From contig CP029803.1 of assembly GCA_003226295.1 (NCBI GenBank), positions 1,172,211 through 1,236,210 on the forward strand: DNA of 64,000 bases, given 5' to 3'. The DNA is from Candidatus Moanabacter tarae. Its GTDB lineage: Bacteria; Verrucomicrobiota; Verrucomicrobiia; Opitutales; UBA2987. The translations under genes and the position numbers were made by a program. The notes below the pieces were generated by a model. The model was not told the DNA's origin. It was given only the letters and a program-made list of their open reading frames with translations, and ran no database searches. Of this stretch, positions 10,680 to 15,484 are shown in pieces (the stretch's first letter is position 1; each line of letters starts with the position of its first letter).

Positions 10680-12104
10680 CTATATTAACTTTTGCTGATC
10701 AACTTTACGCACTTCACGGAAACGGCCACGCAAATCACTCTCCAGAATCTTTCGTGTCTCAGGTGATATCTTCGATACCATATCTTCAAGCTTAGGTTTG
10801 ACCCGATCTTTTTCCTGCTCAGATTCCGTATCATGAACTAGCTCCTGAGGGCTATCCCCTACGGGCTCTCCTTCAACCTTAGATGCCTTTTTTGGCGGAA
10901 CATCACGACTAGATGAGGCTTTATTTAAGCCCGTGTCCGTTGAATCTGGATCCGAAGATGGTTGACTGACAGGAGACTGAGAATCAGGCATATTTACCGC
11001 AAGACTACTTAAGCGATTAATTACGGAATCGATGGCTCTTGATCTGCTAGCTTCGACAGCCTTGAGCAAGGTAACTTCAAAATTTACCTTCTCGCTCAAT
11101 CCCATTTTTACCGATCTTTCGCCCTCATGTAGGACTTCAATGATTCGGAGCAGAGATTCAGATGTAAGGCCTGAAGGACCCAAAGCACGGGTCCTCCCAC
11201 CCTCCCGAACAGAAGAAATAAGAACCTCTCTTAGAACCACCTGAAGATCTACTAAGATCCGGTATAAGTCGCGACCTTCCGAGGCAAGTTCTTCAACTAA
11301 CTTTAAAAGTGTACTGTAATCAGAGGAAACAATCGTCTGGGCAAGAGCTTCCACCCTTTCTTGAGAAGCGAGTCCGTAGACATCGAGCACATCCTCCTCC
11401 TCAATCTTTTGTCCACAAAACGAGATCATCTGATCAAGAATCGATTGAGCGTCACGCATCCCACCATGAGAAAGGTGTGCGATTGACTGCAACGCGCCTT
11501 TATCAACTTCAATTTTTTCAACGGCCGCTATCTCTTCTAATTTGGCTGCAATCTGCTCATCTGGAATAGGTCGAAATTCAAACCGTTGGCACCTGGAAAC
11601 GATAGTTGGCAAAACCTTATGAGACTCAGTTGTCGCAAAAACGAACTTAACATGAGAAGGTGGCTCTTCAAGTGTCTTAAGGAGGGCGTTAAAGGCCTGA
11701 TTCGTCAGCATATGCACCTCATCAATTATATAGATCTTATATCGACACTGCGAAGGAACGTATTGACAATCCTCTCGAATATCTCGGACCTGATCAACCG
11801 AGTTGTTAGAAGCTCCGTCTATCTCAATCACATCCATACAACTCCCCTCCATGATGGACTGACAAATCGGGGAATCGTTCGGCGGAATTAAGGAAGGCCC
11901 GCCCTCGCAATTGAGTGCCTTAGCAAAGAGTCGGGCCATGCTTGTCTTACCAGTACCACGTGGTCCTACAAAAAGATATGCGTGGGCGATCCGCCCCTGT
12001 TCGATAGCATTCCGTAGCGTTCTAACAATGTGATCCTGCCCTACTAACTCCTCAAATTGTTGAGGACGCCAACGACGCGCAATGACCTTATACGATGAAG
12101 ACAT
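10680..12104 (-). CDS. dnaX: DNA polymerase III subunit gamma/tau
   Basis: The clamp-loader ATPase subunit, 474 residues from the ATG at 12104. The frame extends 20 codons further upstream, but family sequence starts at [12 protein letters not shown]. Walker A is GPRGTGKT (47-54), Walker B contains D-E-V-H-M-L, and S-R-C-Q-R-F marks the sensor region. Of the four cysteines that usually bind zinc after Walker A, only those equivalent to the first (C66) and last (C81) remain; C89 lies later and the CxxC pair is absent. The C-terminal third is Ser/Asp/Lys-rich, and the protein is too short to carry the full tau-specific domains. No A-run slippage site was noticed. Confidence 0.93.
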
Positions 12105-12403
12105 GAAAGAAATATAGATTGTTAGGTTAGGGAATGATCTAATCAAACTCAATCTACTCGCCATTCATAGATTTTTTCAGTCTCCGAATAGGCGCACTCG
12201 AAGGAAATGAAACGCCCCTTTTTTTCGACACAAACTATCACTTTTTGGTACCTAATCGTTCTCTTTAACAGTTGTAAACTTTCCACATACAAAAGCGATC
12301 TTAGGCCCTTAATAGAGGAACGGAGAATGCACCCGAACAAAAACACTCCCGACTCAAATGACTAGACGAAGGGAATCTCCTAACTTGAGGTAAGGTATAA
12401 AAA
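12105..12403. other. gap between the SRP RNA and dnaX
   Basis: This should hold the dnaX promoter on the minus strand. A 65-codon open frame (12149-12346, minus) runs through it but lacks a ribosome site and shows no family pattern. I see no firm feature. Confidence 0.35.
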
Positions 12404-13476: not shown

Positions 13477-13505
13477 TTGACATGCATTTAGGAAACCCCT
13501 CTTAT
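13477..13505 (+). promoter_or_regulatory. sigma-70-type promoter for the leuA leader transcript
   Basis: A perfect -35 box TTGACA (13477-13482), a 17-bp spacer and a -10 box TCTTAT (13500-13505, 4 of 6 consensus bases). Transcription would start near 13511-13513 and give a leader of about 245 nt before leuA. The spacing is optimal and the site lies just upstream of a leucine-rich leader ORF. Confidence 0.55.
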
Positions 13506-13528
13506 CCCGGGAATTCGGAAATTCAAAT

Positions 13529-13588
13529 ATGTTCCTAACCGCACCATTTGAGATTGCGCTTAGCGCACTGTTGCGACTTCTCCCCTGA
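13529..13588 (+). CDS. putative leucine-rich leader peptide upstream of leuA
   Basis: A 19-codon ORF, MFLTAPFEIALSALLRLLP. It holds six leucines (codons CTA, CTT, CTG, TTG, CTT, CTC), four of them within the last six codons. Its TGA stop falls inside the loop of an 8-bp hairpin. It begins about 17 nt after the predicted transcription start and lies 168 nt before leuA. This is the layout of a transcription-attenuation leader, in which ribosome stalling at leucine codons changes RNA folding. The ribosome site is weak (GGAA about 12 nt upstream). Confidence 0.5.
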   Translation: MFLTAPFEIALSALLRLLP

Positions 13589-13669
13589 GGGGGAGAAAAG
13601 GGTTCGATCTGTACATATTTTTTCTTAACCGCTGGAATTGTTATATCCAATTCCCTCGAGAAACGGTTA
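13578..13669 (+). promoter_or_regulatory. candidate attenuator hairpins in the leuA leader
   Basis: Hairpin 1: TTCTCCCC (13578-13585), loop TGAG, GGGGAGAA (13590-13597), starting inside the last leucine codons of the leader peptide; six T residues follow at 13618-13623. Hairpin 2: GGAATTG (13634-13640), 7-nt loop, CAATTCC (13648-13654), enclosed by TAACCG (13626-13631) and CGGTTA (13664-13669). A second CGGTTA near 13691 and a TCCCCTC segment near 13674-13680 offer competing pairings, the latter with the right arm of hairpin 1. No hairpin abuts a T-run directly, so the termination step is uncertain. The 13244-13476 part of this gap shows nothing else. Confidence 0.4.
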
Positions 13670-13756
13670 CCCGTCCCCTCCGCGTCGCCCGGTTATATAT
13701 GATTCTTTGCGATTCGCCAACCAGCCCCAATTCTCCATAAATAGCTTTTAAGAACA

Positions 13757-15484
13757 ATGCACGAAAACCTAAGAACTAAATACCGCCCGTTCCCCAGAAT
13801 AAAATTGCCTGATAGACAGTGGCCCGACCGTAGAATCGACACAGCTCCAACTTGGTGCAGCGTCGACCTGAGAGACGGCAACCAGGCACTTTCTGTGCCA
13901 ATGAATCTGGAGGAAAAACACGAGCTTTTTCAAACTCTCGTCAAAATTGGATTCAAGGAAATTGAGGTCGGGTATCCTTCAGCCTCGGATACAGAGTTTA
14001 ATTTCACCCGCTTTCTAATTGAAAAAGGGCACATTCCAAACGATGTCAGGATCCAAGTCCTGGTAGCCTCTCGTGAACATCTTATCCGACGAACCTTTCA
14101 AGCAATAAAAGGAGCTGATAAGGCGATCATACATCTCTACAATTCAATAAATCCGCTCCAACGTCGAGTGACATTTGGAATGAGTAAAAAGCAGATCAAA
14201 GCCATCGCCGTTGAGGGAACCAAACTCGTGAAAGATCTGGTTCCTAAGGTGCCTGAAACTGAGATTTTCTATCAATATTCACCAGAGAGCTTTTCCGATA
14301 CCGAATTGGATTTCTCTCTAGAAGTCTGTCAGGCTGTGATGAATGTTTGGGAACCTACCGTTGAAAGGCCCATTATTCTGAACTTGCCGGCAACGGTTGA
14401 GCTATCGACGCCAAACACCCACGCCGATCAAATCGAGTGGTTTTGTCGAGAACTCAAGGATAGGGATAAAGCAATTATCAGCCTTCATACTCACAATGAT
14501 CGTGGTACCGGAATTGCAGCGACTGAATTTGGTCTTATGGCCGGCGCCCAACGCGTGGAAGGAACCCTATTTGGAAATGGCGAACGGACCGGCAATCTCG
14601 ACATCGTCACGGCCGCCTTGAACATGTTCTCCCAAGGAGTGGATCCCGATCTTGATTTCCGACGCCTGAATCACATTAGGGAAACCTACGAAAGATGTAC
14701 TAGAATGAATGTTCACGAACGCCATCCCTATGCTGGGGATCTTGTGTTCACCGCCTTTAGTGGAACTCATCAAGATGCTATAAAGAAGGGAATGGACCAA
14801 ATGGACGGAGAAATCGACTCTCTCTGGCAAGTCCCCTACTTACCGATCGATCCCGGAGACATCGGCCGTGCATACAATGCAATAATTAGAATCAATAGCC
14901 AAAGCGGGAAAGGTGGTATTGCTTATGTCATGCACAGAGAATTTGGCTTTGATCTGCCAAAAGCAATACATCCAGATTTTGGAGCCATTGTAAATCAGAT
15001 CGCAGACAGAGAAGGTAGAGAACTCTCATCTCTTGAAATTCGCGACGCTTTTTTAAGGGAATACTCCGATCTGACCTTTCCTCTTTCATTAAATTCATAT
15101 CAGATTAAGAAGAGACCGGAAGATCACAGTCATGTTTCAATCTCGGCTGAAATTACCTACAAGAATCAATCAGAATTCATAGAAGGTAGCGGGAATGGAC
15201 CTATTGCCGCCTTCGTCGATGCTCTCGATTCAATCTCTTTACAGAACTTCCATATCACTGATTTCCGCCAGCATGCCATCACAAAGGGATCTACCGCAGA
15301 AGCAGCTGCCTACGTTGAGATCGAGCGAACCAGTGATCGAAAACGATTCTGGGGTGCTAGCGTTGAAAGCAACATTGAGTTTGCAGGAATCAAAGCATTG
15401 GTCAGTTCGTTTAATCGCACAAATGTTCTCGCAGCGAAGAAAGATACTATAGCGACTGCACCAGAGGTGTCACATAAATCGTGA
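13757..15484 (+). CDS. leuA: 2-isopropylmalate synthase
   Basis: 575 residues, the first committed step of leucine synthesis: condensation of acetyl-CoA with 2-oxoisovalerate. The HMGL-like TIM barrel carries the catalytic and metal motif D-L-R-D-G-N-Q-A-L (R39, D40) and the metal-binding H-T-H-N-D-R-G. The N-terminus (P-D-R-Q-W-P-D-R) and overall length match the long actinobacterial/fungal LeuA class. The C-terminal ~150 residues form the LeuA dimerisation domain that normally mediates leucine feedback inhibition. It stands alone, without leuB/C/D next to it. Upstream lies the putative leucine leader. Confidence 0.95.
   Translation: MHENLRTKYRPFPRIKLPDRQWPDRRIDTAPTWCSVDLRDGNQALSVPMNLEEKHELFQTLVKIGFKEIEVGYPSASDTEFNFTRFLIEKGHIPNDVRIQVLVASREHLIRRTFQAIKGADKAIIHLYNSINPLQRRVTFGMSKKQIKAIAVEGTKLVKDLVPKVPETEIFYQYSPESFSDTELDFSLEVCQAVMNVWEPTVERPIILNLPATVELSTPNTHADQIEWFCRELKDRDKAIISLHTHNDRGTGIAATEFGLMAGAQRVEGTLFGNGERTGNLDIVTAALNMFSQGVDPDLDFRRLNHIRETYERCTRMNVHERHPYAGDLVFTAFSGTHQDAIKKGMDQMDGEIDSLWQVPYLPIDPGDIGRAYNAIIRINSQSGKGGIAYVMHREFGFDLPKAIHPDFGAIVNQIADREGRELSSLEIRDAFLREYSDLTFPLSLNSYQIKKRPEDHSHVSISAEITYKNQSEFIEGSGNGPIAAFVDALDSISLQNFHITDFRQHAITKGSTAEAAAYVEIERTSDRKRFWGASVESNIEFAGIKALVSSFNRTNVLAAKKDTIATAPEVSHKS

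Follow-up and report, generated by a model that had tools for sequence, protein, structure and literature searches.

We analyzed the region upstream of leuA in a 64,000-nt stretch of DNA (hereafter, the window) from a member of the Opitutales (Verrucomicrobiota), and found that leuA is probably preceded by a leucine-responsive leader-peptide attenuator. Judged by comparison with its relatives, this leucine leader of leuA is real and conserved; the comparison supported the broad interpretation given in the original prediction, but not its details of a classical hairpin switch. The genome is a single contig of 2.63 Mb, and the closest named relatives of its LeuA come from Opitutales MAGs (71% identity). 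The leuA gene (13757..15484, plus strand, ATG at 13757) encodes a 2-isopropylmalate synthase of the TIGR00970 type, and since both neighboring genes lie on the opposite strand it stands alone. Elsewhere in the window, a bacterial small SRP RNA (Rfam RF00169; 12402-12500, minus strand) adjoins a dnaX-like gene (10680-12164, minus strand). Several members of the order with small genomes (~0.8-1.9 Mb) gave no leuA match, which suggests leucine auxotrophy in those organisms.

The leader begins with a sigma-70-like promoter (13477..13505, plus strand) consisting of TTGACA at 13477-13482, a 17-nt spacer and TCTTAT at 13500-13505. A mechanical promoter scanner omitted this site because the second hexamer lacks an A at position 2; the TTGAC is nevertheless conserved in homologous leaders. 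Transcription is expected to start near 13512, ~16 nt upstream of the ATG of a 19-codon ORF, MFLTAPFEIALSALLRLLP (13529..13588, plus strand; ATG at 13529, stop codon TGA at 13586-13588), which is indicated by the sequence, by homologues in the same family and by third-position differences among them. The ORF (ATG TTC CTA ACC GCA CCA TTT GAG ATT GCG CTT AGC GCA CTG TTG CGA CTT CTC CCC TGA) contains six Leu codons (CTA, CTT, CTG, TTG, CTT and CTC), four of them within the last six codons. At the Ala-Leu-Ser codons, a GCGC-TTA-GCGC mini-hairpin (13556..13566, plus strand) that is invariant in four family members occupies the position of the CGACTTA motif found in other leaders, so that GCGCTTAGCGC is the window's counterpart of that motif. 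The end of the ORF lies within a perfect 8-bp hairpin, TTCTCCCC(TGAG)GGGGAGAA (13578..13597, plus strand), whose 5' arm holds the last Leu codons and whose loop holds the TGA. Beyond this stop-codon hairpin, which lies 168 nt from the leuA start, the rest of the leader (13598..13756, plus strand) has no recognizable terminator; it contains a U6 tract at 13618-13623 that starts 20 nt past the stem, a GGAATTG/CAATTCC hairpin at 13634-13654 and a C-rich stretch at 13669-13735. The strict motif CTNCTCCCCNNNNGGGG occurred only once in the whole genome. We dismissed a second, weak R1 match in the same genome, as there was no Leu leader at that place.

The promoter, the leucine-rich ORF and the hairpin enclosing the stop codon had all been named in the original prediction, and all three were confirmed in the window and recurred in relatives. 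In the same family, three genomes have the leaders MIVDQNLLLALSAVLRLLP, MIADQKLLPAALSAILRLLP and MIANQIWLLALSAVLRLLP, each ending in a stop codon and followed by the same hairpin at a comparable distance from leuA, with the peptide end ALSAxLRLLP-stop retained. Across the order we collected 48 distinct leuA leaders, selected for having the stop-codon hairpin, in which CTCCC..GGG[A/G]G is kept and is read in frame as CTN-CTC-CCC or a close variant. The stop codon (TGA, TAG or TAA) mostly lies in the hairpin loop, while in some lineages the ORF passes through the hairpin and stops just beyond it (..LLPLGE, ..LLPMGG and ..LLPGGGA before the stop). An in-frame Leu codon precedes the CTC in 43 of the 48 leaders, and Leu occurs in frame in ~15-23 of 48 at the majority of codons between -9 and -2, as compared to 0-9 in the other frames. 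TTGAC was found 74-149 nt upstream of the hairpin in 47/48 leaders, where 4.2 would be expected. The N-terminal peptide sequences vary among leaders, and related leaders, compared group by group, differ most often at third codon positions. Hairpin stability in these leaders gave a mean z of -2.0. The CTCCC hairpin hardly varies, so that it shows weak covariation and is too invariant to be judged by it; CTC-CCC is also under codon constraint.

A covariance model of 46 positions was used to scan 273 genomes of the order, and all 30 of the 30 best places were at leuA; 28 of them were shown there directly, and the other two (G003:C95 and G025:C169) lay just 5' of leuA matches. R1 matches from scans of the class and the phylum outside the order were treated as chance since the inspected loci were not at leuA, and the CTCCC version therefore looks restricted to the order, many members of which have no CTCCC element at leuA. 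A further leuA search, centred on G323, led back to the same order. At the level of sequence, then, the promoter, the ORF and its frame, the Leu codons, the hairpin and the linkage to leuA are conserved. The original prediction had proposed conservation of peptide and stem as a test that could refute it. It withstood that test, and the recurrence of the peptide end, frame, promoter and hairpin before leuA makes Leu-codon control of this lone gene the best reading.

We also examined leuA regions that lack the CTCCC hairpin, which often retain the promoter together with a short ORF that contains Leu. In leaders of the Pelagicoccus type (MNLNVQPTLRLSKLDSLLLA and its relatives) the stop codon is enclosed by a long hairpin, GACAGCC...GGCUGUC, and the leader L103 retains this stem through GACAAC/GUUGUC, a compensatory change. 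Of the 165 regions upstream of leuA, 40 contained the heptamer CGACTTA where 2.5 would be expected, with counts that are not fully independent because some of the regions come from close relatives. The heptamer lies inside short ORFs, where it is read in frame as Arg-Leu-Ser/Thr (CGA CTT A[GC]N), and such leaders reach another order (L198-L214) and another class (e.g., L229, L236, L253 and L254); CGACTTA ORFs with stop-spanning hairpins before leuA were also seen in L234 and L246. Among leaders without the CTCCC hairpin, 30 were picked by CGACTTA alone; their pairing across the stop codon was better than in shuffled sequences (mean z -1.8; 19/30 below -1.5), which gives independent support for the stop-codon hairpin. 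Some diverged leaders, such as MIARILPTARLSRPDLQGRRAG, have few Leu codons. In L211-L213 a very strong stop-codon hairpin (~-40 kcal/mol) is followed by a U-rich stretch and might act as a terminator that overlaps the ORF. These observations led us to consider, tentatively and at somewhat less than even probability, a Verrucomicrobiota-wide family of leuA leaders defined by an in-frame CGA-CUU-A and a hairpin spanning the leader's own stop codon. In such a family, ribosome stalling at a fixed Leu position would itself block the hairpin; an antiterminator would play no part, and the output, by Rho or by a U tract, would vary by lineage.

The original prediction had described further mutually exclusive pairings before leuA, and these were not borne out: the whole window leader folded no better than shuffled sequences (z -0.23), and across relatives the 3' arm of the hairpin (GGGGAG) paired with sequence further downstream no better than by chance (mean z +0.53), a result that argues against conservation of an antiterminator. 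Two conceivable antiterminator pairings of the window, GAGGGG/CCCCUC and GGAGAA/UUCUCC, were rejected, as they scored no better than shuffles and were not conserved. Neither an intrinsic terminator between leader and leuA nor an anti-Shine-Dalgarno structure was found in the window. Candidate terminators with U tracts were identified in several lineages, namely AAGCG..CGCTT+GTTTT in f10, GCACGCTTGTGTGC+TTTT in f20b, CGGC..GCCG+TTTTT in f20a and several in f19, and over the 48 leaders terminators at -8 kcal/mol or better modestly exceeded shuffles (11 vs 5.4). Three Coraliomargarita-type leaders (L011, L014 and L048) have a second conserved hairpin, GCGGGC..GCCCG, ~20 nt past the leader stop, and the candidate AAGCG..CGCTT+GTTTT closer to leuA. 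No YG pause-site signal was detected at a constant distance from the hairpin. The leader past the hairpin is C-rich in 45/48 cases, as compared to only 21/48 for the sequence upstream of the promoter, and C/(C+G) is 0.66 in the post-hairpin leader of the window. Since the genome also encodes Rho, Rho-dependent termination in this C-rich leader is no more than a reasonable guess for the window. In this comparison the sensor, made up of the putative leader ORF and the stop-codon hairpin, is conserved, and the outputs coupled to it are variable or were not seen.

We propose that transcription would begin ~16 nt upstream of the ATG and that a ribosome would initiate on the 19-codon ORF. Under a shortage of Leu-tRNA, the ribosome would stall on the Leu codons just before and inside the 5' arm of the hairpin and hold the stop-codon hairpin open, and leuA would be expressed. 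With ample leucine, the ribosome would terminate at the TGA in the loop and depart, the hairpin would close and leuA expression would presumably fall. In some relatives the stop-codon hairpin or a later one, together with a U tract, may serve as an intrinsic terminator, while for the window an output through Rho in the C-rich leader is our guess.

How the hairpin acts on leuA was weighed between several readings. The leucine attenuation put forward in the original prediction stood as far as Leu-codon control is concerned, on the strength of conservation; the alternative hairpins that were to decide on termination were not seen in the window and are not conserved. Such a three- or four-segment mechanism, in which the freed GGGGAG arm acts as an antiterminator and an intrinsic terminator otherwise forms before leuA, is possible but rather doubtful. 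The stop-codon hairpin does resemble the 1:2 hairpin of trp-type leaders and the Coraliomargarita-type, f20 and f19 lineages have conserved U-tract candidates; however, the window has no terminator, the overall excess of terminators is modest and the 3' arm shows no downstream pairing beyond chance. The stop-spanning hairpin could instead be the terminator itself, and a ribosome halted within its 5' arm would then block it directly, with no need of an antiterminator; we regard this too as possible though on the unlikely side. It agrees with the extended stems of the relatives L003 and L005, which are followed by UAUUUU-type tracts, with the U5-U7 shortly past the stem in f19 leaders and L134, and with the very strong stems and U-rich stretches of L211-L213, but the 20-nt gap before the window's U6 and the lack of a U tract at that place in GC-rich lineages count against it.

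Readings that set aside either termination or the Leu codons fared less well. A binding site or arrest peptide independent of the Leu codons, with a factor reading the peptide end (LLP-stop) or CGACTTA, would account for the conservation of that heptamer as nucleotides, including in leaders with few Leu codons. We consider it improbable given the strong in-frame Leu enrichment, the varied N-terminal peptides and the linkage to leuA. Control of leuA translation by a leader structure that masks the start of the gene, along the lines proposed for the LEU element of Actinobacteria, is likewise suggested by a Leu-codon ORF preceding leuA (PMC1262725), yet it appears quite improbable because the Leu codons pair with the adjacent arm rather than the leuA start. 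Moreover, the last 60 nt before leuA were no more structured than shuffles in the leaders compared (mean z +0.26), which speaks against a sequestered start and led us to reject it. Finally, a chance ORF next to a chance hairpin would fit the z of the total leader fold, but with the promoter, ORF and hairpin conserved at leuA in dozens of genomes, the comparison refutes this reading and leaves it hardly any probability. The leucine-responsive attenuator thus stays our preferred explanation. In a major environmental phylum it would offer a leucine switch that is conserved and testable, and a leader useful for asking how attenuators work with no recognizable terminator.

In the enterobacterial leu leader and in trp-type attenuators, a short ORF with the regulatory codons (Leu in the former) ends so that these codons and the stop lie within the first hairpin. 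As in other leader-peptide attenuators, the 48 leaders contain a short ORF enriched in frame in codons for the pathway product, a promoter upstream of it that would place ORF and gene on a shared transcript, and a hairpin that overlaps the Leu codons and would hence depend on ribosome position. The window shares with the enterobacterial leader (Rfam Leu_leader) a Leu-codon ORF before a leucine pathway gene; unlike it, the window has a single leuA instead of an operon, and it lacks the terminator and mutually exclusive antiterminator of a classical transcription attenuator. The original prediction held that the sequence resembles no known leader, which agrees with our searches: no Rfam family, Leu_leader included, matched the window leader, and a search of openly available papers for leader attenuation in Verrucomicrobia turned up nothing relevant, where absence is not proof. 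In the actinobacterial LEU element (Seliverstov et al. 2005, PMC1262725), the Leu run pairs with the leuA Shine-Dalgarno sequence and forms a pseudoknot. The window resembles it in having a Leu-rich ORF before leuA and no obvious terminator, but its Leu arm pairs with the GGGGAG directly after the stop codon and not with the Shine-Dalgarno sequence. The ilvB-II motif of Corynebacterium (PMC10272879) is similar in its conserved uORF, rich in branched-chain codons and spanning a hairpin, in its position ~150 nt before the gene and in occurring once per genome; it has a strong terminator stem with a U tract, and the window leader differs from it in gene, phylum and sequence. The ilv-leu operon of S. 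aureus has a leucine-rich attenuator (PMC5794164) that likewise relies on a Leu-dependent leader peptide, but there the regulated unit is an operon, a clear terminator lies 52 nt past the peptide and no sequence resemblance to ours was noted. Set beside these systems, the leuA leader appears to be a taxon-specific variant of leader-peptide attenuation, previously undescribed as far as our literature search shows.
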